Assembly: GCA_017459725.1 (NCBI GenBank)
Contig: JAFUCL010000003.1
Location: 1 to 37,130, forward strand
Length of the DNA stretch: 37,130 bases
Origin: Solobacterium sp.
GTDB lineage: Bacteria; Bacillota_I; Bacilli_A; Erysipelotrichales; Erysipelotrichaceae
Direction: 5' to 3'
Shown: in pieces, positions 16,874 to 33,504 of the stretch
Numbering within the stretch: the first letter of the stretch is position 1
How the letters are laid out: every line of letters starts with the position of its first letter
The notes under the pieces: model-generated
What the model saw: the letters and a program-made list of their open reading frames with translations, nothing else
The model's database searches: none
Told to the model about the DNA's origin: nothing
Program-made: the position numbers and the translations under genes

Positions 16874-16912
16874 CCGATGCTGTTTTGAACTTCTTTGATT
16901 AACCGGATATTA

Positions 16913-16941
16913 TTGATACGTGAAACGTTACAGGTTACAAT
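16913..16941 (+). promoter_or_regulatory. higBA promoter with overlapping operator
   Basis: TTGATA (16913-16918), a 17-base spacer and TACAAT (16936-16941) form a near-consensus promoter. The spacer holds the near-palindrome TGAAACGTTACA (16921-16932), well placed for HigA autorepression. The expected start point is about 16948, which is the higB ATG itself. Confidence 0.7.
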
Positions 16942-16947
16942 ATATAC

Positions 16948-17226
16948 ATGATCAAATCATTCATACATAAAGGCCTTAAAGAGTTTTATGAAACAGGTTC
17001 AGAAAAGGGGATTCAACCTGGGCATGCGCCTAAGCTTGCACGTATGCTGGATAGACTTGACGCAAGTACATCTCCACAGGATATGAATTTACCCGGATAT
17101 AGACTACATCCATTAAAAGGGGACAAAAGAGAAATGTGGTCTGTAACAGTAAACGGAAACTGGAGGGTAACATTCTACTTTGAAGGCCAGGACGCATACC
17201 TTGTAGATTATCTTGATTACCATTAA
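16948..17226 (+). CDS. higB: HigB-type toxin (RelE superfamily)
   Basis: The 92-residue protein matches HigB killers, ribosome-dependent mRNA interferases. Family features are the FIHKGLKEFYETGSEKGIQP start, LARMLDRLDAS, the LHPLKGDKREMWSVTVNGNW strand and the closing FYFEGQDAYLVDYLDYH. Basic and aromatic residues in these strands normally form the RNase site. There is no Shine-Dalgarno sequence; the ATG sits about 7 bases after the -10 box, so the message is probably leaderless. higA follows 15 bases later, the usual toxin-first order of HigBA. It lies between the two copies of the 176-bp repeat. Confidence 0.88.
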   Translation: MIKSFIHKGLKEFYETGSEKGIQPGHAPKLARMLDRLDASTSPQDMNLPGYRLHPLKGDKREMWSVTVNGNWRVTFYFEGQDAYLVDYLDYH

Positions 17227-17241
17227 AGGAAGGTGAAATAT

Positions 17242-17535
17242 ATGATCAGAAGAAAACCGACACATCCGGGAACAGTGTTTCTTGAAGATGTGATGAAGCC
17301 ACTGGGATTAACCGTAACAGATACTGCACGGATGCTTGGAGTGAGCAGAAAAGCATTGTCTGAGTTTGTTAATGGAAAAGCGGCATTGAGCCCGGAGATG
17401 GCTTTGAGAATCAGTAAAGCAACAAATACATCTGCAGAAAGCTGGATGAATATGCAGCAGAAACTTACACTGTGGAATGCATACCAGCATGAGCCGGAGA
17501 ATGTGACAGTTTTCCCGTTTGAAACAGTATCCTGA
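17242..17535 (+). CDS. higA: HigA-type antitoxin (Xre-family HTH)
   Basis: The roughly 97-residue protein begins RRKPTHPGTVFLEDVMKPLG, the standard HigA N-terminus, with an Xre helix-turn-helix at about residues 27-60 (TARMLGVSRKALSEFVNGKA, then LSPEMALRISKATNTSAESW). It neutralises HigB and should bind the operator in the shared promoter. The ATG at 17242 is chosen because GGAAGG lies 8 bases upstream; a GTG three codons earlier lies inside that site. Higher expression of the antitoxin is expected because it has a good ribosome site whereas higB has none. Confidence 0.9.
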   Translation: MIRRKPTHPGTVFLEDVMKPLGLTVTDTARMLGVSRKALSEFVNGKAALSPEMALRISKATNTSAESWMNMQQKLTLWNAYQHEPENVTVFPFETVS

Positions 17536-17575
17536 ACAGTCTGAGTCTTTCAAATGACTCAATGAAAATGAAAAA

Positions 17576-17620
17576 GAGATTCCGTAAGTTTATCAGACTT
17601 TCGTGAATCTCATTTTCTTT
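17576..17620 (+). terminator. Terminator after higBA
   Basis: GAGATTC (17576-17582) pairs with GAATCTC (17605-17611), with AAGT/ACTT inside and ATTTTCTTTG after it. A-rich sequence before the stem allows function on the minus strand as well. Confidence 0.65.
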
Positions 17621-17756
17621 GTGGTGCGGAAAACGGAAATCGCTCCATAGGGGCTTGATTTCCTTAAGTGCGTAAGATCAATGGCAGAGTAGAGGAGCCG
17701 CTTGAGGGGATCCAGAAATATGGATCAGATGTGTCAGGGGACTGGTGAAAACAAAA

Positions 17757-17797
17757 ATGAGATCCCAGTCTCCTTACTCAGAAGTCCAGGATCTCAT
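17757..17797 (-). terminator. Minus-strand terminator beside repeat copy 2
   Basis: ATGAGATCC (17757-17765) pairs with GGATCTCAT (17789-17797). Read on the minus strand it is followed by TTTTTGTTTT. It sits just past the tRNA-Leu core of repeat copy 2, repeating the tRNA-fragment-plus-terminator layout seen at 16632-16738. Confidence 0.65.
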
Positions 17798-17821
17798 ATT
17801 TGCCCATAAACAGTGAGGATA

Positions 17822-17997
17822 ACAGGACTTGAACCTGCACGCCGTAGGCAATAGATCCTAAAACTCCAGAATGCGTAAGATCAGTGCCTGAAATAATCTG
17901 TTGAATCATGAATGCCGATAACTGGTGATCTTATGAGATGTCACGCTCTGACACCGCGTAAGGCCTTTTTTGCTTCGACACGTAAGATTATAACATG
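17822..17997. repeat. 176-bp direct repeat, copy 2 (contains a 41-base tRNA-Leu core)
   Basis: It is identical to 16698-16873 except for one base. The 41-base core at 17822-17862 equals 33432-33472 in tRNA-Leu. Unlike copy 1, it lacks the last 11 bases of the tRNA (acceptor strand and CCA), so homology with the chromosome ends earlier. The two copies are 1124 bp apart and enclose higBA, as expected for two elements inserted in tandem at one att site, or for duplication of one element end. Confidence 0.9.
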
Positions 17998-18065: not shown

Positions 18066-19265
18066 TTAGTCTTTTCCATTCTCTCGATACTTTTGAGGGG
18101 TAAGCCCTTCGTATTTTTTGAAAATCTGGGTGAAATAGCTTTGCGAAGGGTAATTAAGGTAATTGGTGATCTGACTCAGCGTACTGTCAGTATGGCGAAG
18201 CAGATATCTGGCTTCCTGCAGTTTTTCGCGGTGGATATATTCGGTAATGCCCATACCCATTTCTGCTTTGAAACGTATGGACAGACTTCGTCCGCACAGA
18301 CCGCAGTAATCGGAAAGGATATCCAGACTGATGGGCTCATGGAGATGGACAGAGATATACCTGAGGCAGGCTTCAATGATTTTGGATGAAGCCGGCTTTC
18401 TGCGGACTTCCCGTACTTTTCCGCAGAAATCCATCAGCATTGTAAAAGTCAGGTTCTGCAGCAGCGGAATTTCCGTGAGCAGATCAGCACGCTGGCAATA
18501 AAGATCACTCAGACTGAAGGCAGTTTCCGGTTCAAGACCGCCGCGGATCGCTGCCCGTGAGCTCAGTACCGCCATGCAGATAAAGGCATATTTCTGCTGT
18601 CGCAGATCATTTGAAGACATATGGCCGATATGGCCCTGAAAGGGAGAAAACAGGGCGCGTTCCAGCAATGCCCGGTTTCCTGATTCAACAGCGCCGCAGA
18701 TCGCTGTTTCAAAATCCTGCGGAACGTGATAATCAGCGGTTTCACGCTGTTCAAAGATCTGCCGGTCCAGCATTGTCATACCCAGTTTCCGGCCGGTTAC
18801 GGTATCGACGAACATAATACTGTCGGGACTGATCACATTTTCGAACAGTCTGCTCAGGATACAGATCAGATCTTTCAATTTTTCAAGAGAAACCAGCGGC
18901 TGCTGCAGAAGCTGGTCACAGAACTGCTGCAGAAAGACAGGCTGAATCGCCTCGCCGATTTTTTCCAGCAACTCCGAACGGGTATGTACATACGGGCTGA
19001 CAATGCCGATCAGCACATAATAACCGCCGTCCAGTTCTATCATGCCGAGAAGCAGTCCGGGATCAAAAAAACTGATCAGCGGATGGGATTGATCACGTCC
19101 ATATACTTTGAAATCATGCAATACGGCATCGGCGGCATTCTCTTTCAGCAGGCCGCTGTCGGCTGGCGGAAAAGACCGCAGAAGACTGCCTTTCTCATCG
19201 ATCAGAGACAGAGGAATGCCGGCAATACTGTGCATACCTTCCAATACTGATAATATTTTCTGCAT
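18066..19265 (-). CDS. AraC-family transcriptional regulator
   Basis: The protein of about 399 residues has a C-terminal AraC DNA-binding region from about residue 295 to 395: first helix-turn-helix near LDILSDYCGLCGRSLSIRFK, second near STLSQITNYLNYPSQSYFTQ, followed by FKKYEGLTPQKYREN. The N-terminal 250 residues form a sensor domain of no familiar type, with GMIELDGGYYVLIGIVSPYV and a helical middle. The start at 19265 is chosen because GGGAGG lies 5 bases upstream; an in-frame ATG 16 codons earlier has no such site. It is divergent from the GPH symporter gene and most likely controls the rhamnosidase locus. It may recognise the perfect palindrome at 19321-19338. Confidence 0.9.
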   Translation of the reverse strand: MQKILSVLEGMHSIAGIPLSLIDEKGSLLRSFPPADSGLLKENAADAVLHDFKVYGRDQSHPLISFFDPGLLLGMIELDGGYYVLIGIVSPYVHTRSELLEKIGEAIQPVFLQQFCDQLLQQPLVSLEKLKDLICILSRLFENVISPDSIMFVDTVTGRKLGMTMLDRQIFEQRETADYHVPQDFETAICGAVESGNRALLERALFSPFQGHIGHMSSNDLRQQKYAFICMAVLSSRAAIRGGLEPETAFSLSDLYCQRADLLTEIPLLQNLTFTMLMDFCGKVREVRRKPASSKIIEACLRYISVHLHEPISLDILSDYCGLCGRSLSIRFKAEMGMGITEYIHREKLQEARYLLRHTDSTLSQITNYLNYPSQSYFTQIFKKYEGLTPQKYRENGKD

Positions 19266-19297
19266 ATTTTCCTCCCAAACATAAGAATATCGTAAAT

Positions 19298-19338
19298 TTG
19301 ACATAAGAATCAATAATTTTATATACCGAACGGTATAT
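19298..19338 (+). promoter_or_regulatory. Promoter and perfect palindromic operator of the glycoside locus
   Basis: TTGACA (19298-19303) is followed after 17-18 bases by ATATAC/TATACC as -10. The -10 lies inside the perfect 18-bp palindrome ATATACCGAACGGTATAT (19321-19338). A protein bound there would block this promoter. AraC proteins usually bind direct repeats, so a second repressor, for example of LacI or TetR type outside the window, is possible. A minus-strand promoter for the AraC gene (TTGATT, 18 bases, TATTCT) lies in the same gap. Confidence 0.6.
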
Positions 19339-19404
19339 CACAAGTATATTGATGATGTGAAAAGGGGGAAGAAAGCCCTTACAGATTCATAAATGGAGGA
19401 AATT

Positions 19405-20808
19405 ATGGCAAAAAAAGAACTCGGTCTTGACAGCATGGGTATTCAGAAAACCATGCGTCTGAAGGACTATCTGGGAGATGGTATCGGCCAGCTTCCGCTG
19501 AACGTTATGTCCTGTCTGGTAGGACAGCTCACGTATTTCTACACAGAGAAAGTCGGTCTTGCGGCAGGTGCCGTGGCAACAATGCTGCTGATCGCAAAGA
19601 TTGCTGATGCTTTCTCAGACCTCATCATGGGAAAGATCATGGATAAAGTGAATTCGCCGAAAGGTAAGTGCCGTCCCTGGTTCCTGTGGATGGCTGCCCC
19701 GACAGTTGCTATCATCGTCCTGATCTTCACAGTACCGCATGCATCAAGCGGACTGCAGATGGCATATGTCCTGATCACAAACATTCTGATTTCCGCAGTG
19801 ATTTATACAGCCATTGCCATCCCTTACGGCTCCATCATGGCTGTCCGTACAGAGAGTATGGAAGAACGCGGAAAGATGGGAATTGCACGTACAGTATTCG
19901 GCTACCTGATCGGTATGGTCATCGCAGTTCTTCTGATCCCGATCACAAACATGCTCGGTCCGAACGGTGTTGCTGACCAGGCTGCATGGATCAAAGTCGG
20001 TGTCGTCTTCGCAATCCTTTCCGGTGCATCACTTCTGGTTCTCTACCGCACTTCCAAGGAAAACTCTGAAATCCAGAAACTCCAGAACACTGAAAAGCAG
20101 GACAGCTTCTTTGAAGAACTGAAACTCCTGTTCAAAAACAAGTACTGGGTTATCATGCTGATTGCCAACCTGTTCGTCAATATCTCCTATGGTCTGAGTT
20201 CCTCAGGCGGAACATACTATGCCAAGTATATCCTCGGCAACGACAACATTGTCGCCCTTCTCGGTGCAATCGGCCTGATCCCGACATTCCTCGGTTTCAT
20301 CCTGGTCGGCCCCATGACAAAGAAATTCGGCATGGCTAAGACCTGCATGATCGGAACAATCCTCGGTGCAGTTGCCTGTGTCGTCCGTGTATTCACACCG
20401 TACAGCTTCTACTCCTGTGTCATCGGCGGTGCATTCCAGACATTTGCAACAATGCCGATCATGTGTGTCAGCGGTGCGCTGGTCAACAACTGTGTAGAAT
20501 ACAACGAATGGAAGTTCGGAAAGCGTCTTCTCGGTATGAGCAACTCCGCAAGTTCATTCGGTGCCAAGGTCGGATCCGGTATCGGCGGATCCCTGATCGG
20601 ATGGCTCCTGGCTGCTGCAGGCTACGTCGCAGGTGCAGCTGCACAGCCCGCTTCAATCAACACGGCAATCTTCTCATTCGCAATCTATATCCCGCTGGCT
20701 CTGTTCGTAATCCTGGCGATCCTGTTCTCCAAGTATGATCTTGAAGGTATCTACCCGAAGATCATGGAAGAACTCCGTGTACGCAGAGCAGAAAAAGAAA
20801 ACGCATAA
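19405..20808 (+). CDS. GPH-family sugar:cation symporter (MelB-like MFS)
   Basis: The 467-residue protein has about twelve membrane segments and the glycoside-pentoside-hexuronide family signature: DYLGDGIGQLPLNV in helix 1, then DAFSDLIMGKIMDK with the conserved Asp pair that binds the coupling cation, followed by GKCRPWFLW. It should import a glycoside, disaccharide or uronide with Na+ or H+. The ATG at 19405 follows GGAGG by 6 bases; an in-frame ATG at 19393 lies within that site. The genes downstream encode rhamnosidases, so rhamnosylated oligosaccharides or glycosides are the likely cargo. All the enzymes lack signal peptides, consistent with import of an intact glycoside before cleavage. 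Confidence 0.9.
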   Translation: MAKKELGLDSMGIQKTMRLKDYLGDGIGQLPLNVMSCLVGQLTYFYTEKVGLAAGAVATMLLIAKIADAFSDLIMGKIMDKVNSPKGKCRPWFLWMAAPTVAIIVLIFTVPHASSGLQMAYVLITNILISAVIYTAIAIPYGSIMAVRTESMEERGKMGIARTVFGYLIGMVIAVLLIPITNMLGPNGVADQAAWIKVGVVFAILSGASLLVLYRTSKENSEIQKLQNTEKQDSFFEELKLLFKNKYWVIMLIANLFVNISYGLSSSGGTYYAKYILGNDNIVALLGAIGLIPTFLGFILVGPMTKKFGMAKTCMIGTILGAVACVVRVFTPYSFYSCVIGGAFQTFATMPIMCVSGALVNNCVEYNEWKFGKRLLGMSNSASSFGAKVGSGIGGSLIGWLLAAAGYVAGAAAQPASINTAIFSFAIYIPLALFVILAILFSKYDLEGIYPKIMEELRVRRAEKENA

Positions 20809-20820
20809 TAAAAATGAAGC

Positions 20821-20854
20821 AAGACCCGTAAGAGCTTCTGACTCTGCGGGTCTT
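20821..20854 (+). terminator. Hairpin between symporter and rhamnosidase genes (attenuating terminator)
   Basis: AAGACCCG (20821-20828) pairs with CGGGTCTT (20847-20854), with AAGAG/CTCT inside. The T-run is short (TTTC), so it probably reduces rather than blocks transcription into the rhamnosidase genes. Confidence 0.6.
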
Positions 20855-20873
20855 TCAGGAAGAGGAGAAAAAC

Positions 20874-23633
20874 ATGCTGAAACTGTATGATCTGACTATT
20901 GAATATAAAACAAACCCGCTCGGTATCGACGAAGTGCAGCCCCGCTTCAGCTGGAAGCTTGAAAGCGATCAGAATAATACAATCCAGACAGCCTATCAGC
21001 TGACAGTATCCAACGGCGAAGTTATGTGGGATACCGGTAAGGTTGAATCAGATCAGAGCATTCTGGTCGAATACATGGGAGCCCTTTTCGAGGCGAAAAC
21101 TGAATACAAATGGGATGTTACCGTATGGGATAATCACGGAGAGAGTGCAGAGGCTTCCGCGGAATTTGAAACAGGCCTGCTTAAAGGCAATGCATTTGAA
21201 GGCAAAGCAAACTGGATCACCCATGGTTTTGCAAAAGAAGAAACAGCAAGTCCCGTCTTCACGAAGACATTCAATATAGCTAAGCCGGTTGTCAAAGCAC
21301 GTCTTTATGCAACAGCACTTGGTGTATATGAAGCAGAGGTCAATGGTATAAAGGCTGATGATACATACTTCGCACCAGGCTGGACAAGCTATCACAAGCG
21401 TCTGCAGTATCAGACTTATGCCATTGACCAGCTCCATGAAGGTAAAAACGAAATCCGCTTCACACTAGGCAAAGGCTGGTATTCCGGTCCGCTCGGCTTC
21501 ACGCCGACACCGAACCACTACGGTGATACCACTGCGCTGCTGGCAATGCTTGTCATTACGTATGAAGACGGTACGGAAGAATTCATCGGCACAGATGAGA
21601 GCTGGAATGTTACCGCAGGCGTCATCCGTTTCTCCGAAATCTATGACGGTGAGACACAGGACTGGACATCTGAAGAGACCCTCACCGGAAAGGCACAGTT
21701 GTTCGATCATGGCTTTGACACATTGATCGCCCAGGAAAACGAGCCTGTCCGCTGCCTGTGCACACTTGTGGCAGCGAAAGAATTCACAGCGCCGAACGGT
21801 GAACATCTCTTTGATTTCGCACAGAATCTGACCGGCTGGGTACAGGTGAGAGTTCATGGCAGAAAAGGCCAGAAGATCACGCTTCGCCATGCAGAGAGCC
21901 TGGATGAAAACGGAAACTTCTACACGGGTAACCTGAGCTTTGCCAAAGCGACAGACACCTACATCCTGAACGGAGAAGAACAGACACTGCGTCCGCATTT
22001 CACATTCCACGGCTTCCGCTATGTATGTCTGGAAGGTCTTGAAGAAGGACAGAACATTGAGCTGACCGCATGCCATCTCTCCAGTGATCTGAAGGAAGCC
22101 GGAAACTTCTCCTGCTCGGATGAACGCATCAACCGTCTGTATCAGAACATCGTCTGGGGCCAGAGGGACAACTATCTCGATGTGCCGACAGACTGCCCGC
22201 AGAGAAGCGAGCGGCTGGGCTGGACGGGAGACGCGACGGCCTTTACGCCGACGGCGGTATTCCATCAGAACATTATGCCGTTCATGCGAAAATGGCTGCG
22301 CGATCTCGCCGCGGATCAGGATCCCGCAACCGGTGCGCCTCAGGTAGTGCCGGACGTGCTTTCCGACGGCGCGACAGGCGGACAGAACGGCGCGGCTTAC
22401 TGGGGCGACGTCACGACTGTCGTACCATGGACACTGTATGAAACATACGGCGACAAGCGAGTTCTTTCCGAACAGTATGAATCGATGAAGATCTGGACAG
22501 AATATGTCCGCCGTCAGTGTGCAGACAGCGGGCTCTGGCAGGATGGCTTCCAGTATGCTGACTGGCTCGGGCTTGACGCTGAGATGAACGGTCTGGCTGA
22601 ACCGCGCAAAGGCGCTACAGATGATTATTTCGTCGCAAATGCCTGCTGGCTCTGGACGCTGCAGATTATGACAGATACCGCAAAAGTACTCGGCAATACG
22701 GAAGATGAGAATACTTACAGAAGCCTGCGTGAAAAAGTCCTCGCTGCTTTCCGCGATGAATACGTTACAAAAACAGGACGTCTTGTCAGCGAGACACAGA
22801 CAGCCATGGTCCTGGCACTTCACTTCGGCCTGGTTGAAGATCAGTTCAGAAAAGCGGTCGCAGACCGGCTTGAAACAAACATCGCCGCACATAAGACACA
22901 TCTGACAACAGGGTTCATCGGAACACCGTATCTGTGTCTGGCTCTGAGCGATAACGGCAAACATGACATTGCCGGAAAGCTTTTTCTGCAGGAAGAGAAT
23001 CCGGGCTGGCTCTATGAAGTAAAAATGGGAGCTACAACGATCTGGGAAAGATGGAACTCCATCATGCCCGACGGCAGTTTCAATCCCGTAAATATGAACA
23101 GCCTGAATCACTACGCATACGGATCGATCGGTTACTGGATGTATACGCGCCTGTGCGGACTGCAGATGCTTGAGCCCGGCTATAAGAAGTTTGCGGTGAG
23201 ACCTGCTTTCATTAAAGGCATTACGCATGCGGAACTGAGTTATGAGAGTGTTTACGGAACGATCAGAACAGCATGGAGATGCGAGAACGGAAAGATCACA
23301 GTGGATCTGACAGTACCCGTCAATACGGCTGTCGAACTGACACTGCCGGAAAGGGAAGAAACAATCACACTCGGAAGCGGTGTGTATCACTATGAATATG
23401 AGACGGAAACACGTCTGGAGCAGGATCGCTATACGATGGAAACACTGCTGCGGGTCATGCTGGATCATCCGGCAGCGCAGCCGATCATCCGTCAGTATAT
23501 GCCCCAGATGCTCGATAATCCCATGATCGAGTATGTCAGGGAAGAACCGATCTCCACGCTGCTGACATATTCGGCAGAAGCAAAACCTTTATATGAAATG
23601 ATCCTGAAAGCAATGAATGAGTCAGGAATTTAA
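20874..23633 (+). CDS. Alpha-L-rhamnosidase 1 (GH78)
   Basis: The 919-residue enzyme should release terminal alpha-L-rhamnose from glycosides. The order is: N-terminal Fn3-like strand domain (1-110), Bac_rhamnosid_N (about 135-290, with YATALGVYEAEVNG and GWTSYHKRLQYQTY), a middle beta domain, the (alpha/alpha)6 barrel (about 420-770) and a C-terminal beta domain. The GH78 signature DVPTDCPQRSERLGWTGDA is present. Acidic residues D563, D568 and E570 in DWLGLDAEMNG and E725 in TTIWERW are at the expected catalytic positions. There is no signal peptide, so it acts in the cytoplasm on imported substrate. A C-terminal extension of about 75 residues (from about 840), helical and rich in Met and Pro, is beyond the usual family end. 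Bases about 22180-22400 are visibly richer in CpG than their surroundings. Confidence 0.93.
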   Translation: MLKLYDLTIEYKTNPLGIDEVQPRFSWKLESDQNNTIQTAYQLTVSNGEVMWDTGKVESDQSILVEYMGALFEAKTEYKWDVTVWDNHGESAEASAEFETGLLKGNAFEGKANWITHGFAKEETASPVFTKTFNIAKPVVKARLYATALGVYEAEVNGIKADDTYFAPGWTSYHKRLQYQTYAIDQLHEGKNEIRFTLGKGWYSGPLGFTPTPNHYGDTTALLAMLVITYEDGTEEFIGTDESWNVTAGVIRFSEIYDGETQDWTSEETLTGKAQLFDHGFDTLIAQENEPVRCLCTLVAAKEFTAPNGEHLFDFAQNLTGWVQVRVHGRKGQKITLRHAESLDENGNFYTGNLSFAKATDTYILNGEEQTLRPHFTFHGFRYVCLEGLEEGQNIELTACHLSSDLKEAGNFSCSDERINRLYQNIVWGQRDNYLDVPTDCPQRSERLGWTGDATAFTPTAVFHQNIMPFMRKWLRDLAADQDPATGAPQVVPDVLSDGATGGQNGAAYWGDVTTVVPWTLYETYGDKRVLSEQYESMKIWTEYVRRQCADSGLWQDGFQYADWLGLDAEMNGLAEPRKGATDDYFVANACWLWTLQIMTDTAKVLGNTEDENTYRSLREKVLAAFRDEYVTKTGRLVSETQTAMVLALHFGLVEDQFRKAVADRLETNIAAHKTHLTTGFIGTPYLCLALSDNGKHDIAGKLFLQEENPGWLYEVKMGATTIWERWNSIMPDGSFNPVNMNSLNHYAYGSIGYWMYTRLCGLQMLEPGYKKFAVRPAFIKGITHAELSYESVYGTIRTAWRCENGKITVDLTVPVNTAVELTLPEREETITLGSGVYHYEYETETRLEQDRYTMETLLRVMLDHPAAQPIIRQYMPQMLDNPMIEYVREEPISTLLTYSAEAKPLYEMILKAMNESGI

Positions 23634-23643
23634 GGAGATGACT

Positions 23644-26600
23644 ATGGATAACAGAGTAAAGGAAACTCTTGCGAAGATGACGTTGGAGGAGAAAATATCT
23701 CTCTGCAACGGTACGGATTTCTGGCACAGCAGGGCATTTGAAAAGTACGGTATTCCTTTCATCACGATGTCGGATGGCCCCCACGGACTTCGTGTGCAGA
23801 AGGGTGACGCGGATATGCTGGGCGTCAATGTATCCGAACCCGCCACATGTTTCCCCACCGCTGTCGCAAGCGGGGCGTCATGGGACCGCGGACTTCTGAA
23901 AGAAGAGGGCAGAGCAATCGGTGAAGAAGGCCTTTCATATGGCGTCGATGTCGTGCTCGGTCCGGGCGTCAATATCAAACGGGATCCGAGATGCGGACGG
24001 AATTTCGAATACTTCTCCGAGGATCCCTTTCTGGCAGGTGAAATGGGAACTGCCTGGGTGCAGGGTGCTGAGAGCACCGGCATCGGTACAAGTCTGAAAC
24101 ATTTCGCAGCCAACAGTCAGGAATTCAAACGCTTCAACGGAAACAGCCAGTTGGATGAGCGCACTCTGCGTGAAATCTATCTGCCTGCTTTCGAAACAAC
24201 TGTGAAAAAAGCGCAGCCTGCCACGGTCATGTGCGCGTATCCCATGCTCAACGGCGTGCACTGCAGCGATAACAAAAAACTGCTGAACGATATCCTCCGT
24301 GATGAATGGGGCTTTGAAGGCCTGGTCGTTACGGACTGGGGAGCGCTTTGCGACCGTGTAAAAGCCATGGAAGCAGGCTGTGATCTTTCCATGCCCGGCG
24401 GCAGTGATTACATGGAAGACCGTGTGGCTGCGGCAGTGCGTGAGGGGACACTTCCCGAAAGTGCAGTGGATGCCTGCGCGGCACGCGTGATCCGTCTTGC
24501 GCTGCGGTCACAGGAAAACAAAAAAGAACAGCCTTTCGATATGGAAGCGCACAATGGGACCGCAGAAAAAGTCGCTGCCGGCGGTGCGGTCCTTCTGAAA
24601 AACGAAGACAATATCCTGCCGCTGAAGAAGGAAGATATCGTCCTGATTGGAGACATGGCGCAGAATATGCGTTATCAGGGCTCCGGGTCGAGCCATATCA
24701 ATCCGACAAAGCTCACAAGCCTCAGAGACGTTCTGCCCGATGTGCCGTTCGCGGCGTGCTGTAGCGCAGACGGTGAAGTAACGGACGAAAGCCTGAGTGA
24801 AGCGGTCCGTCTGGCTGAAAATGCAAAGACAGCCGTCATCTGCGCCGGCCTTCCGGATATCTATGAATCCGAAGGGTTTGACCGTGAAGATCTGCGGATG
24901 CCTGCAGGTCATGTACGCATGATCGAAGCAGTAGCAGCGGTCAATCCGAACACCGTCGTCGTCCTCTTCTGCGGCTGCGCGGTGGAAGTTCCGTGGATCG
25001 ATAAAGTAAAAGCGGTGCTGTATATGGGCCTTCCCGGCCAGTCCGGCGGGCAGGCAGCCGGGGATATCCTGATGGGAAAGGTGAATCCTTCAGGCAAACT
25101 GACGGAAACATGGCCGCTGAAACTTTCCGACGTTCCTTCCTATGAGACATTCGGAAAGAAGTATACGCATTACAGTGAAGGCCTCTATGTCGGTTACCGG
25201 TATTATCAGAAGGCAGGAGTTCCGGTGCGCTTCCCGTTCGGATACGGTCTCAGTTATACATCATTCGAGTACAGTGATTTCAAAGCGGACAAATATCATG
25301 CGGCCGCAAAGATCACCAATACAGGAAATACAGCCGGTGCGGAGATCGTACAGCTGTATGTGAAAGCACCGCAGGACGGTCTTTACCGCCCTGTACGGGA
25401 ACTCAAAGGGTTTGCGAAAGTATTCCTCGAGCCGGGTGAAACAAAAGAAGTCAGTTTTGATCTGAATGAGCGCAGTTACGCGGTATGGACAGACGGATGG
25501 AAAGTTCCTTCCGGCACATACGGGATCGAGATCGGTACTTCCTCGGAGGATATCCGTATGACGGCGGATATCACTGTTGAGGGTGAAGAAATGCCGGTTC
25601 CTTCCTGGCAGCAGGGAAGCTGGTATGAAAAACCGCAGGGCCATCCTTCAGACCGGGACTTTGAAACAATATTTGGCGGTCCGATACAGAAAGAGCCTGA
25701 AATCCGTAAAGGACAGTTCACTATGGAAATGTCCACGATGGAAATGAAGGATACTTCTCCTATTATGAACATGATGTTTAAGATCACGGAGAAGACCATT
25801 GCGAAGGGGTTCGGCGGGAAAGCCGATTACAGCAATCCGACGTTCAAAATGATGGTCATGTCCGGTGCCGACGCACCTCTGCGCGCGACAGTACTGTCAT
25901 CCGGCGGAGTGTTCCCGGCGAATGTTGCGGAAGGCATGCTGGAGATGGCAAACGGTCATATGTCTGAAGGAATCAGGAAATTTGCCGTAAAAAAGCCGGC
26001 GGAGAAAAAGACAAAGACAAGCGCAATGCACAGGTTTCTCTTCAGTGTTCTGATGAAGAACAAACACATCTATGATCCTGAAAATCCGCGGGACTACGCC
26101 GCTGCGAGACAGTCGGAGATCGACAGTGTGAAAATGATCAGGATCCCCAGCAAGATCAGGATATTCCGCTCATATCTCGGAAGAGTTCCCGCGGTATGGA
26201 TCTCAAAGGAGAATAACCCGCTTGACAGGATCGTCCTGTATATCCATGGCGGCGGCTTCGTCACGGGATCCACAGAAGCCCGAAAAGGCTTCACATCCTA
26301 TATTGCGGATAAGCTCGGCCTGAATGTCGTTTCGATCGATTACCGTCTTGCGCCGGAACATCCGTTCCCGGCCGGACCGGATGACTGTTTTGAAGCGTAT
26401 AATGCACTTCGGGAAAAATACAGGGCGGACCGGATCGTCCTGCTTGGCGAAAGCGCCGGCGGAAACCTCATTTTATCACTGCTGCTGCAGATAAAAGACG
26501 CTGGACTGCCTCTGCCCGCAGGGACGTTCGCGATCGCTCCGGCCGTACAGTTTGACAAAGAACTGGACAGCTACAGGGACAATGCGGACACGGACTGCAT

Positions 26601-26955
26601 CGTGGCAAATCTGTCCGGTGAAGTCTTTGACACATATCTCTGTTCACGGGATGAAGCGGTAACAAAAGATCCCAAGGCAGCGCCGTATTACGGTGACTTC
26701 ACAGGCTGCACGCCGGTCGTTCTCTGGGCGTCCGAAACAGAAGTCCTGCTTGACGACAGCCTGATCATGTTTGAAAAGCTGAAGGAACAGGGTGTTGTCA
26801 CGAAGCTGTATCTGCGTGACGGCATGATGCATACATGGATGATCATTCCGAACTTTGCGGAATCAAAGAAGGATCTGGCGATCCTTGGAAAAGATATGCA
26901 TCTTGCACTGAACGGAAAACTCAGTGCTGCGTCTGAACCGGTCAAACTTGACTGA
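23644..26955 (+). CDS. GH3 beta-glycosidase fused to an alpha/beta-hydrolase esterase
   Basis: This 1103-residue protein joins two enzymes. The N-terminal GH3 part has the barrel (1-290, nucleophile D231 in VVTDWGAL), the GH3_C domain (about 300-520) and an Fn3-like domain (about 560-650). A helical linker with GMLEMANGHMSEGIRKFAV follows. Residues about 840-1090 form an HSL-type (abhydrolase_3) domain: oxyanion motif HGGG at 868-871, nucleophile S937 in GESAGG, acid E1033 or D1037 in ETEVLLDD, and H1063. A typical GH3 enzyme of this kind is 700-800 residues, so the esterase is an addition. The pair suggests removal of acyl groups and beta-linked sugars from one substrate. There is no signal peptide. 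ATG at 23644 is chosen for AAGGAG 6 bases upstream, which contains the rhamnosidase stop region; earlier in-frame ATGs lie inside the upstream gene. Confidence 0.92.
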   Translation: MDNRVKETLAKMTLEEKISLCNGTDFWHSRAFEKYGIPFITMSDGPHGLRVQKGDADMLGVNVSEPATCFPTAVASGASWDRGLLKEEGRAIGEEGLSYGVDVVLGPGVNIKRDPRCGRNFEYFSEDPFLAGEMGTAWVQGAESTGIGTSLKHFAANSQEFKRFNGNSQLDERTLREIYLPAFETTVKKAQPATVMCAYPMLNGVHCSDNKKLLNDILRDEWGFEGLVVTDWGALCDRVKAMEAGCDLSMPGGSDYMEDRVAAAVREGTLPESAVDACAARVIRLALRSQENKKEQPFDMEAHNGTAEKVAAGGAVLLKNEDNILPLKKEDIVLIGDMAQNMRYQGSGSSHINPTKLTSLRDVLPDVPFAACCSADGEVTDESLSEAVRLAENAKTAVICAGLPDIYESEGFDREDLRMPAGHVRMIEAVAAVNPNTVVVLFCGCAVEVPWIDKVKAVLYMGLPGQSGGQAAGDILMGKVNPSGKLTETWPLKLSDVPSYETFGKKYTHYSEGLYVGYRYYQKAGVPVRFPFGYGLSYTSFEYSDFKADKYHAAAKITNTGNTAGAEIVQLYVKAPQDGLYRPVRELKGFAKVFLEPGETKEVSFDLNERSYAVWTDGWKVPSGTYGIEIGTSSEDIRMTADITVEGEEMPVPSWQQGSWYEKPQGHPSDRDFETIFGGPIQKEPEIRKGQFTMEMSTMEMKDTSPIMNMMFKITEKTIAKGFGGKADYSNPTFKMMVMSGADAPLRATVLSSGGVFPANVAEGMLEMANGHMSEGIRKFAVKKPAEKKTKTSAMHRFLFSVLMKNKHIYDPENPRDYAAARQSEIDSVKMIRIPSKIRIFRSYLGRVPAVWISKENNPLDRIVLYIHGGGFVTGSTEARKGFTSYIADKLGLNVVSIDYRLAPEHPFPAGPDDCFEAYNALREKYRADRIVLLGESAGGNLILSLLLQIKDAGLPLPAGTFAIAPAVQFDKELDSYRDNADTDCIVANLSGEVFDTYLCSRDEAVTKDPKAAPYYGDFTGCTPVVLWASETEVLLDDSLIMFEKLKEQGVVTKLYLRDGMMHTWMIIPNFAESKKDLAILGKDMHLALNGKLSAASEPVKLD

Positions 26956-26970
26956 GAACTGGAGATCATT

Positions 26971-29502
26971 ATGAAAGCGATTCGTCTTAGAACAGAATAT
27001 CTGAAGGATACCCTCGGGATCGATGTGCAGAAGCCGCGCCTGATGTGGAACTGCGAAGGCGGTATAAAGCAGAAAGCGTATCAGATCGTCACGGATGAAT
27101 GGGACAGCGGAATGATTGAAAGTTCAGCCATGCATGCTGTTTATCCGAAAGAACTGAACGACAGACAGCGCGTGACATGGAAGATCCGCCTCTGGGATGA
27201 AAACAGTGAACCCGGCGAATGGAGCGAAGCATTCTTTGAAACGGGCATCTCCTGCTGGCAGGCGGAATGGATCACGGGAAACTATAAAGTGAACAAGAAG
27301 GAGCGCTATCCAGTCGATTGTTTCAGAAAGTCCTTCTCTCTGGAAAAAACACCTGTGAAAGCACGCCTGTATATCACTGCGTGCGGCCTGTATGAGGCTG
27401 AACTCAACGGCAGTAAAGCCGGTGACTTCTACATGGCGCCGGGCTATACCGACTACCGCAAACGTGTGCAGTATCAGACTTACGACGTGACAGACATGCT
27501 GTGTAAAGGCAGAAATGAACTGACCGTACAGCTGGCTGACGGCTGGTACCGCGGTTCATGCGGCGCCAACGGCATCGAACACCAGTACGGCACCGAGACA
27601 AAACTGCTCGCCCAGCTGGAAATCACGCTTGAAGACGGCACTATGATGACAGTCGTCAGCGATGACAGCTGGGACTGGTCGAACGACGGTCCGATCCGCT
27701 TTGCGGACAACAAAGACGGGGAGATCATCGAGGCTTTCCGGGTACCGCTGTACCGCCAGAAAGCCAAAGTCACAAAACACAATGTGATCCCTTCCGCTTC
27801 GAACAATGTCCCGGTTACGGAACATGAACAGTTCAAGCCGGTGCTTATCACAACACCATCCGGCAAAACAGTCCTTGATTTCGGACAGAATATACAGGGT
27901 CATGCGTCGTTCAGACTGAACGCACATGCGGGTCAGAGGATATTCCTGCGCTTCGGCGAACTGATCGACAAAGACGGGGAATTCACACAGGACAACATCC
28001 AGCTGGCAAACAGGGGAAAACTGACGCCGCTGCAGCAGGTGGAATACTTCACGAAAGAAGGCCTGAATGAATACAGGACACGGTTTGCCGTATTCGGATT
28101 CCGGTATGTCCTGGTTGAAACCGATGTTCCGTTTAAGCCGGAGGACTTTACGGCCCATGCCGTCTATTCCGATCTGGAACGCACAGGCTGGTTCAGCTGT
28201 TCCAAAGAACTGCTGAACCGGTTCTTTGACGCGACAGTCTGGAGTGCAAAAGGCAATCATCTGGACATTCCGACCGACTGTCCGACCCGGGAGCGCCATG
28301 GCTGGACAGGAGATGCGCAGCTGTTCTTTACAACGGCTTCCTATCTCTTCAGTTTTGCGCCGTTTGCCCGGAAATATCTGAACGACATCTATGACTGGCA
28401 GCGGAAAAACGGACGGCTGCCGCACATTGCGCCGGAAGGCGGCTCTGATTTCTACATGTGGACGATGAACGGTTCGGTAGGATGGTCGGATGTCGGGGTA
28501 TTGATACCTTGGCGCTTTGCGCAGATTTTCAATGATGAATCGATTCTGCGTGAATATTATGAAGGCATGGTGAAATATGCCCGCTTCATGGAAAGCCGCA
28601 TCGGCAGAACAACGCCGGTATTCTCTGATCATATAAAGCTTTCCAGAGAAAACCGGAAGTATTTCGTAAATACCGGACAGAGCTATGGCGAATGGGCGGA
28701 GCCTGTTGATGTGGACGGAGGTTTCAGATGGCAGGATTTCGTCAAACCCCATCCGGAGGTTTCGACGGCCTATACAGCCTATATCATGCGTCTGATGAGT
28801 GAGATCGCAGAAAGACTCGGCCATAAGGAGGACGCGGAAGAATTCAGCAGATATGCGGACGGCTGTAAAAAGGCATACCAGGAACTTGTTTCCGGCGGTG
28901 AATATTCACTGGATACCGACCGTCAGGCACAGCTTGTCCGTCCTCTGTACATGGATCTATTAACGGAAGAACAGACGGTATACGCGAAAAAACGTCTGAT
29001 CACGGCACTGGAAAACTACGGATGGCGCCTGGGCACAGGTTTCCTGTCCACACCACTGATCCTGTATGTCCTTTCGTCCTACGATACGGATGCCGCATAC
29101 CGTCTTCTTGAAAACGAGGAGATCCCGGGCTGGCTCTCCATGCCGAAACAGGGGGCGACAACCATCTGGGAAAGCTGGGAAGGCCCCAACGCACAGGGCA
29201 CGGTCGCGTCGCTTAATCATTATTCCAAAGGTGCTGTGGTGGAATGGCTGTTCTCGACTATGTGCGGGATCAATGTCGCGGGAGAGAATCATTTTGTCAT
29301 CAGGCCACTTCCCGGAGGAAGCTTCACATGGGCCGAGGCATCTTACAGAAGTGTTTTCGGAACAGTAAAAGTCCGCTGGGAAAAGAATGACAGAAAGACC
29401 GTGTATACGATCAGTATTCCCGCAAACTGTACAGCAGAGATCCGTTTGCCGGGAGGCATGACAGAAACTGTATGCGCAGGAGAATACATCTTTGAAGAGT
29501 GA
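26971..29502 (+). CDS. Alpha-L-rhamnosidase 2 (GH78)
   Basis: The 843-residue GH78 enzyme has the same domain order as rhamnosidase 1 but without the C-terminal helical extension. Motifs include YITACGLYEAELNG, GYTDYRKRVQYQTYDVT, the signature DIPTDCPTRERHGWTGDA, and the catalytic base E734 in TTIWESW. The two rhamnosidases differ widely outside these motifs, so they are not a recent duplication and probably take different linkages or aglycones. It starts 15 bases after the GH3-esterase stop with a modest GGAG site, and belongs to the same operon. No secretion signal is present. Confidence 0.93.
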   Translation: MKAIRLRTEYLKDTLGIDVQKPRLMWNCEGGIKQKAYQIVTDEWDSGMIESSAMHAVYPKELNDRQRVTWKIRLWDENSEPGEWSEAFFETGISCWQAEWITGNYKVNKKERYPVDCFRKSFSLEKTPVKARLYITACGLYEAELNGSKAGDFYMAPGYTDYRKRVQYQTYDVTDMLCKGRNELTVQLADGWYRGSCGANGIEHQYGTETKLLAQLEITLEDGTMMTVVSDDSWDWSNDGPIRFADNKDGEIIEAFRVPLYRQKAKVTKHNVIPSASNNVPVTEHEQFKPVLITTPSGKTVLDFGQNIQGHASFRLNAHAGQRIFLRFGELIDKDGEFTQDNIQLANRGKLTPLQQVEYFTKEGLNEYRTRFAVFGFRYVLVETDVPFKPEDFTAHAVYSDLERTGWFSCSKELLNRFFDATVWSAKGNHLDIPTDCPTRERHGWTGDAQLFFTTASYLFSFAPFARKYLNDIYDWQRKNGRLPHIAPEGGSDFYMWTMNGSVGWSDVGVLIPWRFAQIFNDESILREYYEGMVKYARFMESRIGRTTPVFSDHIKLSRENRKYFVNTGQSYGEWAEPVDVDGGFRWQDFVKPHPEVSTAYTAYIMRLMSEIAERLGHKEDAEEFSRYADGCKKAYQELVSGGEYSLDTDRQAQLVRPLYMDLLTEEQTVYAKKRLITALENYGWRLGTGFLSTPLILYVLSSYDTDAAYRLLENEEIPGWLSMPKQGATTIWESWEGPNAQGTVASLNHYSKGAVVEWLFSTMCGINVAGENHFVIRPLPGGSFTWAEASYRSVFGTVKVRWEKNDRKTVYTISIPANCTAEIRLPGGMTETVCAGEYIFEE

Positions 29503-29529
29503 GTAGTATTTCTCAAAAAATTCTTATGA

Positions 29530-29937
29530 CGCCGGTCCCTGGCCAAACCGCAAGACAGATCAAAACCCACAGAAACGGTGATACTTTACTCACTCTGGTG
29601 GTGTGTGATCGCGGTCTTCCATGGCAAGACAGGCAGCGGCTATCTGACGCAGTTCTATCCGCCGGTCGGCCCTGTCACATATCTGGGCATTACACAGGAC
29701 AGAGACGGCCACTTCAAATTCGTTGTCGCGGAAGGTGAGAATCAGGAAGGCCTGATCTTCACATTCGGTGACACCAACATGCGTACGAAGTTTTCGATCA
29801 GTGCAAGGGAATTCGTCAACAGATGGTCCGGGGCAGGTCCGAGGCATCACATGGCCGCTGCCGCAGGCAGACACATTGACACGATCCTCAAAGTCACAAA
29901 GATCTTCAATGTACCGGTCGACATCGTCACAAGATAA
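29530..29937 (+). pseudogene. 3' remnant of an L-fucose/L-arabinose isomerase-family gene
   Basis: An open frame bounded upstream by TGA at 29527 encodes about 110 protein-like residues: HGKTGSGYLTQFYPPVGPVT, GHFKFVVAEGENQEG, FTFGDTNMRTKFS and the end segment WSGAGPRHHMAAAAGRHIDT. The AEGE segment, GDTN and the late HH are typical of the C-terminal domain of fucose/arabinose isomerase-type proteins, which are 450-500 residues long. The N-terminal three quarters are missing, and no start codon with a ribosome site is present (a GTG at 29578 is a poor candidate). It is therefore a truncated gene, caught between the rhamnosidase and SDR genes. The original enzyme probably isomerised a sugar released by the neighbouring hydrolases. 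Confidence 0.6.
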
Positions 29938-29966
29938 TGTTTCTGATTACACAAGGAGGAAAACCT

Positions 29967-30980
29967 ATGAAAGTATTCATGATCGGCGGCACCGGACTGC
30001 TGGGCAGTGAGGCCGCCAAAGTCCTGATCGAAAGAGGACATGAAGTATTATCCATCGCTCTGCCGCCGCTGCCGAAAGGCGCGGTACTCCCGGAGAAAAT
30101 GATAATCGAATTCGGCAATTATCTCGAAATGAGTGATGATGAACTGCGTGAAAAACTGGCCGGCTGTGAAGGATTTGTCTTTGCGGCAGGTGTGGATGAA
30201 AGAGTCGAAGGTCCATCACCAATCTATGACCTGTATAAAAAGTACAATATCGATCCGGTCAAAAGACTGCTTGGTTTATGCAAGGAATGCGGTGTAAAGC
30301 ATGCGGTGATCTGCGGTTCTTATTTCTCATACTTTGCCAAGAAATGGCCGGAAAAGCAGCTGACAAAATGGCATCCGTATATCCGCAGCAGAATTGATCA
30401 GGAAAATGAAGCGATGAAGTTCGCGGATGATGGCTTCAGCGTCGCGGTTCTGGAACTGCCGTATATCTTCGGCACACAGCCTGGCAGAAAACCGGTCTGG
30501 GTATTCCTTGTTGAACAGGTCATGTCGATGAAAGGCGTTACGCTTTATCCAAAAGGCGGCACGACCATGGTTACCGTGCATCAGGTCGGCCAGGCCATTG
30601 CCGGCGCCCTGGAAAAAACCGAAGGCGGCAGATGCTGGCCGATCGGCTACTACAACATGACATGGAAGGAAATGCTGAAGATCGTTCATAAATATATGGA
30701 CTGCCCGGAAAGACCTGTCATCACGATTCCCAACTGGATGTATGCGATGGGCGGAAAGCAGATCATCAGGGAACAGCAGGAAAAAGGTATCCAGGGCGGT
30801 CTGGAGATGGTGAAGTTCACCGATATCATGTGCGCCAATACATTCATTTCCAAGACAGAAGGATGTATTCCGCTCGGCGTACAGCCGGATGATATAGAAG
30901 GGGCCATCGGTGACAGCATTCTCCTTTGCCGGGATATCCTGGAAAACAAGACGGAAACGATCGGGATGAAGGGGGAATGA
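29967..30980 (+). CDS. NAD-dependent epimerase/dehydratase-like extended SDR (YxxxR variant)
   Basis: The 337-residue protein has a Rossmann fold with the cofactor motif GGTGLLG (residues 7-13) and family-like LELPYIFGTQPGRKP and TMVTVHQVGQAI segments. The position of the catalytic YxxxK pair reads Y138-IRS-R142, with Arg replacing the usual Lys. The enzyme may therefore act differently or only bind nucleotide. The ATG at 29967 has AAGGAGG 8 bases upstream; an in-frame ATG at 29937 lies at the stop of the isomerase remnant. The next SDR gene overlaps or abuts its stop (ATGA), so the two are likely partners. Possible roles are oxidation or epimerisation of a sugar, or reduction of an aglycone. 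Confidence 0.8.
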   Translation: MKVFMIGGTGLLGSEAAKVLIERGHEVLSIALPPLPKGAVLPEKMIIEFGNYLEMSDDELREKLAGCEGFVFAAGVDERVEGPSPIYDLYKKYNIDPVKRLLGLCKECGVKHAVICGSYFSYFAKKWPEKQLTKWHPYIRSRIDQENEAMKFADDGFSVAVLELPYIFGTQPGRKPVWVFLVEQVMSMKGVTLYPKGGTTMVTVHQVGQAIAGALEKTEGGRCWPIGYYNMTWKEMLKIVHKYMDCPERPVITIPNWMYAMGGKQIIREQQEKGIQGGLEMVKFTDIMCANTFISKTEGCIPLGVQPDDIEGAIGDSILLCRDILENKTETIGMKGE

Positions 30981-30982
30981 TC

Positions 30983-32512
30983 ATGAAAAGAATGCGTGTG
31001 TTCATGACCGGTGCCGGCGGCGGCATGGGTTATGAAAGCTTCAAACAGATGGAAAAGGATCTGGGGGAGCTGTATGATCTGGTGATCCTCGTTCGCGACA
31101 GTGATAAAAACCGCAGACTGTTCGAGCGGTATATCGGCACAAAAGGTTTCACAGTCATCTTCGGTGATCTTCTGAACAAGGATGATGTCATGGAATGCGT
31201 GAGAAGAAGTGATCTGTGTCTGCATATCGCCGCTTTTGTTTCGCCGGCCGCGGATTATCACCCGGATCGGGCGATGAAGAACAACTACGGTTCCACAAAA
31301 AACATCATCGAAGCCGCAAAGGAACTGGGCAAAGAAGACACATACAAATTCGTCTATATCGGCACCGTTGCGGAAACAGGCGACCGCATGCCGCCGATTC
31401 ACTGGGGCAGAGTCGGAGATCCGATCAAACCGAGCATGTTCGATTACTATGCCGTATCCAAAGTCGCCGCTGAACGTTATGTCATTGAGAGCGGCCTGAA
31501 ATACTGGGTATCGCTGCGTCAGACCGGCATCATGGGTCCGGCAATGGCGAAGATCCGCGATGCCATCCAGTTCCATAACTGCATCGACAATGTCCTGGAA
31601 TATGTATCCGACCGAGACAGCGGCAGGGCAATGCGAAACCTGTGCGCCTTTGATGCAGACGGCACCCTGGATCCGTCCTTCTGGGGACACATCTACAATA
31701 TCGGCGGCGGTGAAAGCTGCCGCATTGATACCGGAAAGATGTATGAAATCATGTATGGCAAGCTGGGCTTCACTTCCCTGGATTCCGTAATTGAACCGAA
31801 ATATACTGCCACCCGCAATTTTCACGGCCAGTATTATCTGGATTCCGACAAGCTGGAAAACTATCTGCATTTCCGCTGTGATTCCATGGAGTATTTCTAT
31901 GACGCCTACATGAAGGAACTTGGCGCCGCAAGAGGATTCGGCAATCTGATCAATAAAGTACCAAAGGGCCAGGAACTGATGGGCAGCATCATCCGGAAGA
32001 CATTTGAACCACTGTATCACAGTGAACACGGCACAAAGCATTTTATCGAGGATAATGTGGAAGATCATATCGACGCCTACTGGGGCAGCAGAAAGACCTG
32101 GGAGGAAATACCGGAAAAATACAGCGAGCTGAAACGGTTCACGGACTGGGATACGGTTGTTGAAATCGATCATGGCTATGACGAAACAAAACCGGAAGCA
32201 GAACTGGATCTTGAGGATATGAAGAAGGCCGCTGAATTCCGCGGCGGCGTATGCCTCAGCAATGAAATGGTCAAGGGAGACTGGAAAACAAAGCTGAAGT
32301 TCAGATGTGCCTTCGGCCATGAATTCACAGCCAGCCCCCGTCTTGTTCTGGAAGGAGGCCACTGGTGCGATGAGTGTGAACGTAAGAGCTGGAATTACGG
32401 CAACCGCGCCAAGGTGGATCCGTTCTTTGCCCAGGTATGGAAACCTCTTCATGATGAAGATGAAACCAGGGAATACCCGAAGGCTGTTTCGGAAACGGAC
32501 ATTGACAAATAA
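30983..32512 (+). CDS. Extended SDR with C-terminal zinc-ribbon
   Basis: The 510-residue protein is longer than normal extended SDRs (about 310-350). Residues 1-330 form the SDR: cofactor loop MTGAGGGMG (8-16), HIAAFVSPAADY, TVAETGDR and the catalytic pair Y156-AVS-K160. A linker of about 100 residues, rich in charged and aromatic residues, follows. Residues about 440-470 form a zinc-ribbon-like unit with C442, H446, C462 and C465 (CxxxH...CxxC). ATG at 30983 has GGGGGA 6 bases upstream; an in-frame ATG at 30977 overlaps the previous stop. It is the last gene before a strong terminator. The substrate is unknown; the zinc ribbon could bind nucleic acid, a partner protein or simply stabilise a lid. 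Confidence 0.82.
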   Translation: MKRMRVFMTGAGGGMGYESFKQMEKDLGELYDLVILVRDSDKNRRLFERYIGTKGFTVIFGDLLNKDDVMECVRRSDLCLHIAAFVSPAADYHPDRAMKNNYGSTKNIIEAAKELGKEDTYKFVYIGTVAETGDRMPPIHWGRVGDPIKPSMFDYYAVSKVAAERYVIESGLKYWVSLRQTGIMGPAMAKIRDAIQFHNCIDNVLEYVSDRDSGRAMRNLCAFDADGTLDPSFWGHIYNIGGGESCRIDTGKMYEIMYGKLGFTSLDSVIEPKYTATRNFHGQYYLDSDKLENYLHFRCDSMEYFYDAYMKELGAARGFGNLINKVPKGQELMGSIIRKTFEPLYHSEHGTKHFIEDNVEDHIDAYWGSRKTWEEIPEKYSELKRFTDWDTVVEIDHGYDETKPEAELDLEDMKKAAEFRGGVCLSNEMVKGDWKTKLKFRCAFGHEFTASPRLVLEGGHWCDECERKSWNYGNRAKVDPFFAQVWKPLHDEDETREYPKAVSETDIDK

Positions 32513-32669: not shown

Positions 32670-33281
32670 TCAGTATTCAATAGCAGCGCGCCATGGGGCA
32701 GGCAGATCACCGTGCCTTCGCTCACGCATGGTGACAGTTTTGCTTTGGAAAAGGCTTTCGGGAAGCTTTACAGTATCTGTTTCTCTTCTGGGGCCTGTCC
32801 CGATTGCCAGGTTAACAAAAACCCAGGTCTCATATTCTACTTCTGTACAGCCTCTATTCGGCTTCTGAAGCAACCTTTCAAGCTCTTCATCTGTATATGT
32901 TTCCGGTATTGTCTTCTGGAATCTTGGGATGATGACTTGAAATGGAGCGATGCAGTTGTTAGCCATCATCCAGTAAAACCAGGCTCTGATACTGCGGCAG
33001 ATTGCCGCTATAGTTATGTCCTTCTTTCCCTGGTTCTGCTGGTCAACGATGAACTGATTGTAATGGATCTTTGTGCATGTCTTATATGCTGGAACGCCAG
33101 AGTTCTGCAATGTCCGCAAATACATGCTGCAGTGGAATCGGTAGACGAGAAGCGTCTGCTCAGACAAGTTTTCTGCCTGTTTTTCGGCTAAGAACCTTGT
33201 CATTAGCTCTTCTGCACTGAAAGATGGATAGATTTCTGTAGATAGTTCAGCTTGATTGATTCTTCCTGTTCTCTTTTTCAT
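32670..33281 (-). pseudogene. Truncated tyrosine recombinase (integrase), N-terminal part
   Basis: The 203-codon frame starts with an N-terminal SAM-like core-binding domain (EELMTRFLAEKQAENLSEQT, then YRFHCSMYLRTLQNSG and AAICRSIRAWFYWMMANNCI) and the beginning of the catalytic domain (YTDEELERLLQK, then VNLAIGTGPRRET, where GxRRxE-like residues hold the first catalytic Arg). Integrases of this type are 290-400 residues long. Everything after the first catalytic Arg region, including HxxR and the nucleophilic Tyr, is missing, and the last 20 residues look unrelated. It lies 140 bases inside the tRNA-Leu gene and reads in the same direction, the usual place for the recombinase of a tRNA-integrated element. 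It should be inactive. Confidence 0.8.
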
Positions 33282-33420: not shown

Positions 33421-33504
33421 TGGTGCGCCTGACAGGACTTGAACCTGCACGCCGTAGGCAATAGATCCTAAATCTATCGTGTCTGCCGATTTCACCACAG
33501 GCGC
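33421..33504 (-). tRNA. tRNA-Leu(UAG)
   Basis: The minus strand gives an 84-base tRNA with encoded CCA. The acceptor GCGCCTG pairs with CAGGCGC, the D arm contains GGTGAAATCGGCAGAC, the anticodon stem ATAGA/TCTAT encloses loop TTTAGGA with anticodon TAG, a long class II variable arm (TGCCTACGGCG) is present, and the T arm is GCAGG-TTCAAGT-CCTGT. It reads CUA and probably other CUN leucine codons. A TATAAT box lies about 30 bases upstream. Its 3' 52 bases are duplicated at 16687-16738, marking it as the integration site of the island. Confidence 0.95.

Follow-up and report, generated by a model that had tools for sequence, protein, structure and literature searches.

The stretch of DNA analysed here (the window, 37,130 nucleotides) is contig C73 of the 2.97-Mb draft genome of a Solobacterium species (G000). 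It carries an operon predicted to process rhamnosylated glycosides, in which two glycoside hydrolase family 78 (GH78) proteins lie upstream of a pair of short-chain dehydrogenase/reductase (SDR) proteins. Gene content was checked with Pfam and NCBIfam, and the locus consists of the following features.

18066–19313, minus strand: AraC-family regulator, divergent from the operon (PF12833, 5.5e-17)
19393–20808, plus strand: GPH-family glycoside:cation symporter (TIGR00792, 295 bits, cut-off 231; PF13347, 1.7e-72)
20874–23633, plus strand: predicted GH78 α-L-rhamnosidase A, GH78A (five GH78 Pfam domains, the 6H domain at 7.7e-118; motifs)
23617–26955, plus strand: glycoside hydrolase family 3 (GH3) glycosidase (residues 1–~800) fused to an HSL/Abhydrolase_3 esterase (~840–1095) (PF00933, PF01915, PF14310, PF07859)
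26971–29502, plus strand: predicted GH78 α-L-rhamnosidase B, GH78B (PF17389, 3.8e-85)
29605–29934, plus strand: scar, the C-terminal fragment of a fucose/arabinose-isomerase-like gene (residues 363–472 of 472; 330 bp)
29967–30980, plus strand: SDR1, an extended SDR of 337 aa with GGTGLLG and YxxxR (Pfam and motifs)
30983–32512, plus strand: SDR2, an extended SDR of ~509 aa with TGxxGxxG, YYAVSK and an extra C-terminal part of ~190 aa (Pfam and motifs)

Gaps between the genes of the operon are at most 65 bp, with the exception of 464 bp between GH78B and SDR1, and the true starts of SDR1 and SDR2 lie near 29967 and 30983. The two GH78 proteins are 33% identical to each other. Both score above the cut-off with all GH78 Pfam models, the six-hairpin catalytic domain included, and both keep the acidic catalytic motifs DCPxR...WTGD and ATTIWExW; by these domains and motifs they are α-L-rhamnosidases predicted to release rhamnose. 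A third GH78 gene of the genome lies on contig C40 (G000:C40, L107; 5833–8364, minus strand), outside the island described below. The fusion protein contains the GH3 motif TDWG and the esterase motifs HGGG and GESAGG, and homologues made up of GH3 only stop near its residue 790. Its GH3 domain resembles β-glucosidases and α-L-arabinopyranosidase, while its esterase domain also matches BD-FAE, below its Abhydrolase_3 match. No N-terminus among the locus proteins looks like a signal peptide on inspection, in agreement with the first-pass annotation of this DNA. That annotation had also named the regulator, symporter, two GH78 enzymes, GH3-esterase fusion and two SDRs correctly, and the expected motifs are in place in all but SDR1. 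It overlooked the isomerase fragment, along with the direct repeats, integrase remnant and tRNA-Leu gene that frame the locus.

Within the 464-bp gap, 110 codons match the last quarter of a sugar isomerase of 472 aa; the reading frame is kept and the stop codon falls at the same position. The encoded protein is 79% identical in amino acids to the isomerase of a relative's rhamnose operon, and the DNA is 75% identical over 308 bp to the genome's own intact isomerase gene on contig C38 (G000:C38:9411–10829, minus strand; L106). Upstream of 29605 there is no homology to the isomerase. G013, a goat-ileum Solobacterium that belongs to a different species, shares this scar (99.6% DNA identity). No intact rhamnose pathway was found within the locus, where the isomerase end alone remains, but an intact operon in the order rhaB-rhaD-isomerase is present on C38. 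Its RhaB scores 586 bits with the rhamnulokinase model TIGR02627 (cut-off 528). Its aldolase reaches 321 bits with TIGR02624 (E 5.7e-96), under the cut-off of 401, and is best called RhaD-like, with genome context suggesting its function. The C38 operon contains no SDR genes. The fragment appears to reflect the loss of an island copy of the pathway, not chance capture; if the lost genes were also ordered rhaB-rhaD-isomerase, one deletion from behind GH78B into the isomerase would give the arrangement seen in the window. The earlier statement that rhamnose catabolic genes are absent thus stands for intact genes in the window and is wrong for the genome. Its use as an argument against rhamnose as the goal of the locus fails, because in relatives rhaB, the isomerase and rhaD belong to the operon itself, the scar is present in the window and the C38 operon is intact.

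RhaA (PF06134) has no match anywhere in the genome, so neither the C38 isomerase nor the scar belongs to that family. Two types of L-rhamnose isomerase, RhaA and RhaI, have been described (Rodionova et al. 2013, PMC3870299). The isomerase of one relative (L073) matches SftI and AraA alone in NCBIfam, not the RhaI model TIGR02635; in that locus this isomerase type (L073:2474–3889) takes the position of RhaA next to rhaB and rhaD. Close RhaD proteins are encoded in 24 of the 70 genomes of the genus. By a count of coordinates, a C38-type isomerase lies within ~30 bp of rhaD in 22 of these 24, RhaA is there instead in the other two, and both occur together in none. Since the enzyme is not RhaA and yet occupies this position in 22 genomes, with RhaA in the remaining two, genome context makes it a candidate third family of L-rhamnose isomerases. 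It shares with the sulfoquinovose/L-arabinose/L-fucose isomerase superfamily weak matches to SftI (7e-14), AraA (6e-11) and PF02952, but it differs in that all of these are below the curated cut-offs, the NCBIfam ones far below, and in that it sits with RhaB and RhaD, replacing RhaA. No solved structural relative was found at E 0.01.

A scan for SDR2 returned 58 loci at 62–89% identity to the query, in Clostridia, Erysipelotrichaceae, Butyrivibrio, Paenibacillus, Trichococcus, Evansella and one Bifidobacterium, with ruminant-gut names on over half of them. SDR2 has SDR1 as its direct neighbour in almost all cases. Within the fetched flanks, SDR1 accompanies SDR2 at 45 loci, GPH at 32, GH3 at 30, AraC at 26, a GH78B match at 23, a GH78A match at 11 and rhamnose genes at up to 16; these counts are lower bounds because many contigs end early. 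GH78B represents the GH78 subfamily most common beside SDR1-SDR2, and most of its 23 loci hold full-length homologues that are 52–70% identical. Neighbourhoods could be classified for 46 rows of the SDR2 tree, and 40 of these have GH78 and/or rhamnose genes close by, a share that is somewhat high because the rule for an "empty" neighbourhood is stricter than that for a "linked" one.

Of two typical operons, one reads GH3-GPH-GH78B-SDR1-SDR2-RhaB-isomerase-RhaD (L062) and the other GH3-GPH-GH78B-RhaB-RhaA-RhaD-SDR1-SDR2 (L038). The nearest match to the full gene set of the window is a single locus of Trichococcus pasteurii (L072), with GPH, GH78, an alpha/beta-hydrolase as esterase, an SDR1-like gene (35%), GH3, SDR2, a second GPH and a second GH78. 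Many Clostridia and Butyrivibrio likewise carry SDR1-SDR2 together with GH78, GPH and GH3, so the co-occurrence proposed as a check in the first-pass annotation is borne out, and its reading of the locus as one for rhamnosylated glycosides holds by gene content and by this recurrence. In several genomes, TetR-SDR1-SDR2 units stand alone, with no glycosidase of the set and no rhamnose genes nearby. Among the 70 genus genomes, SDR2 is found at ≥69% identity in 10, three fragments included. These fragments (G041:C107, G019:C26 and G002:C2; L112–L114), some with in-frame stops, are remnants of the pair. The GH3-fused esterase occurs in G000, G013 and G039 alone, and G039 carries just the front half of the operon, AraC-GPH-GH78A-GH3/esterase.

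In SDR2, TGxxGxxG and YxxxK are invariant across 34 sequences, as expected of an extended SDR. SDR1 has YxxxR at residues 138–142 in place of YxxxK, and neither Y138 nor R142 varies among 29 sequences. Predicted models of both are confident (predicted template modelling scores of 0.87 for SDR2 and 0.91 for SDR1). The SDR2 model matches extended SDRs at Z ~23 with its top matches tied, and the fold of SDR1 is also that of an extended SDR. In the fold searches with the two proteins, kavalactone and cinnamoyl-CoA reductases are tied with nucleotide-sugar enzymes. Reading a substrate from these searches was rejected, as the tied top matches are generic extended SDRs. An assignment of SDR2 as a 3β-hydroxysteroid dehydrogenase was rejected too: PF01073 matches at 1.2e-13 but is outscored by PF01370, and in a profile search of solved structures capsule and nucleotide-sugar enzymes come first, with no 3β-hydroxysteroid dehydrogenase at E≤0.001. 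The C-terminal ~190 residues of SDR2, hardly covered by the fold search, contain an invariant C..GH and C..CE pattern and look like a zinc ribbon or treble clef, an unusual part to find attached to an SDR.

The following features frame the operon.

16687–16738, plus strand: att-like repeat copy 2, 52 bp, exact
16948–17535, plus strand: HigB-like toxin and helix-turn-helix (HTH) antitoxin, between repeat copies 2 and 3 (PF05015, 3e-23; PF01381, 1.8e-11)
17822–17862, plus strand: att-like repeat copy 3, 41 bp, exact
32670–33281, minus strand: truncated tyrosine-recombinase (integrase)-like open reading frame between SDR2 and the tRNA (PF02899, 0.0026, a weak match below the curated cut-off)
33421–33504, minus strand: tRNA-Leu, the integration site (ARAGORN)
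33421–33472, plus strand: att-like repeat copy 1, the 3' part of tRNA-Leu, 52 bp, exact

Exact 52-bp direct repeats of the tRNA 3' end thus flank the cargo, as in an integrated island, and the chance expectation of the repeat, taken for its 24-bp core, is 0. Compared with G013, identity is ~95% over 14.8 kb and 73% in the right flank; many 400-bp bins of the island block, which adjoins tRNA-Leu in G013, are at 99–100%. In the SDR2 tree, the copy of the window clusters with those of Oscillospiraceae and Lachnospiraceae, apart from the stand-alone copies of its own genus. Taken together, the repeats, the integrase-like reading frame, the tRNA-Leu gene, the identity contrast with G013 and the position of SDR2 in its tree indicate that the locus is on a transferred island integrated at tRNA-Leu. 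An empty island site did not turn up in the other genus genomes; the two flanking genes do not occur together at any locus there. Over the SDR2 region (30400–32512) the bins against G013 fall to 77–83% DNA identity, and patches of both GH78 genes stand at 81–84%. These drops suggest recombination, and because of the fall over SDR2, one of its two copies may have been replaced. The HigB/HTH pair, at 16687–17862 with its repeats, looks like a second, smaller element that was added at this tRNA-Leu site. In G041 (L162), a stretch of the HTH gene (51 aa, 100% identical) is likewise found close to a tRNA-Leu-like repeat.

These data favour a model, which we hold to be probable, of a horizontally acquired rhamnoside-harvesting operon whose SDR pair works on the aglycone or glycoside remnant that hydrolysis leaves and has no part in rhamnose catabolism. 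The AraC protein would sense the substrate or a product, and the GPH symporter would import a small, intact rhamnosylated glycoside that is probably acylated. The esterase domain would strip acyl groups, the two GH78 enzymes would cut α-L-rhamnose from different linkages, and the GH3 domain would take off a β-linked sugar or arabinose. Free L-rhamnose would then be burned through the chromosomal rhaB-rhaD-isomerase operon on C38, the island having presumably lost its own pathway down to the isomerase end left before SDR1. SDR1 and SDR2, as a pair, may carry out a redox modification or detoxification of the released aglycone or remnant glycoside. The substrate and the order of these steps are proposals from gene content.

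Rhamnose catabolism does not depend on the SDR pair, as its distribution shows: 10 of the 70 genomes have SDR2, 24 have a close RhaD and the C38 operon is SDR-free. A role on the aglycone or remnant glycoside is favoured because most rhamnose-using relatives lack the pair and because it also occurs without rhamnose genes; the non-rhamnose part of a rhamnoside is the simplest common factor of its contexts. Several observations weigh against this model. SDR1 is without the usual catalytic lysine, and fold searches place both proteins among generic extended SDRs, mostly nucleotide-sugar enzymes. The recurrent neighbours of the pair are glycoside hydrolase, GPH, AraC/TetR and rha genes, with no other recurrent aglycone-degrading enzyme beside it, and the esterase fusion is restricted to three genomes, so deacylation does not belong to the set in general. 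Substrate specificity of the GH78, GH3 and SDR proteins cannot be read from the sequence here.

The SDR pair could instead act on sugar, oxidising, reducing or epimerising a deoxy- or methylated sugar, whether free or bound, or handling the L-lactaldehyde made by RhaD; the locus as a whole would then serve sugar catabolism, with the aglycone discarded. SDR1-SDR2 does lie within rhaB/rhaA/rhaD operons in several Clostridia, and the structures that SDR2 matches best are nucleotide-sugar dehydrogenases, dehydratases and epimerases. Extended SDRs, however, have this fold no matter what they act on, and plant phenolic reductases belong to the same tied group. The pair is also missing from most genus genomes that have a rhamnose operon, and no sugar genes lie near the TetR-SDR1-SDR2 units that stand alone, which makes this alternative unlikely. 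A scavenging role for pectin (rhamnogalacturonan) oligosaccharides, in which the GH78 enzymes trim rhamnose and the esterase cleaves off acetyl or feruloyl groups, is less likely again. GH78 enzymes are also active on pectic fragments, most named genomes come from the ruminant gut and the esterase domain has its BD-FAE match, but no uronate-active or other pectin enzyme is among the recurrent neighbours and the GH3 domain resembles enzymes of small glycosides.

The locus might also be a decaying composite of unrelated modules that carries the SDR pair by chance. The broken isomerase, the half operon of G039 and the patchy divergence between the window and G013 would fit such a picture; against these stand the other genes, all open with motifs kept, the short gaps everywhere except around the scar, and a GH78B-SDR1-SDR2 or GH78-SDR2 linkage that recurs across distant Firmicutes and one Bifidobacterium, so that we regard it as very improbable. 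A bolder version of the aglycone model is a long shot: SDR1-SDR2 would be a pair that rumen Firmicutes devote to the epimerisation or reduction of aglycones, found with a third L-rhamnose isomerase family in the same operons. A weakly supported example is oxidation and reduction at C-3 of rhamnosylated steroidal saponins, yielding the epi-sapogenins behind hepatogenous photosensitisation.

A highly conserved, uncharacterised oxidoreductase pair that accompanies rhamnosidases, chiefly in bacteria of the ruminant gut, would mark a redox step on plant glycosides. The papers found in literature searches describe neither such a step nor a rhamnosidase-SDR operon. The context of these operons further suggests a family of L-rhamnose isomerases not recognised before, and illustrates that a pathway missing from one window may be encoded elsewhere or recently lost.

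Plant-type phenolic reductases (vestitone, dihydroflavonol, cinnamoyl-CoA and kavalactone reductases) are among the profile or structure matches of SDR1 or SDR2, but at 14–20% identity or E ~1e-5 they are not separable from other extended SDRs, and SDR1 has YxxxR. The rumen converts steroidal saponins to epi-sapogenins (PMC5535167), a system that has the ruminant setting in common with this one and in which rhamnosylated saponins lose their sugars and the aglycone undergoes saturation and epimerisation. Such steps could be a job for a redox pair, although nothing in sequence or activity ties SDR1 or SDR2 to steroids. Bacterial L-rhamnose and rhamnoside regulons (RhaA or RhaI, RhaB, RhaD or RhaEW, and a transporter; PMC3870299) likewise bring rhamnosidases, transporter and regulator together, and relatives of the window's operon also contain RhaB, RhaA and RhaD. 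In contrast to these regulons, the host's isomerase is not RhaA and, within the tests made, not RhaI either, and the window locus has lost its rhamnose genes except for the isomerase fragment while carrying the uncharacterised SDR pair.

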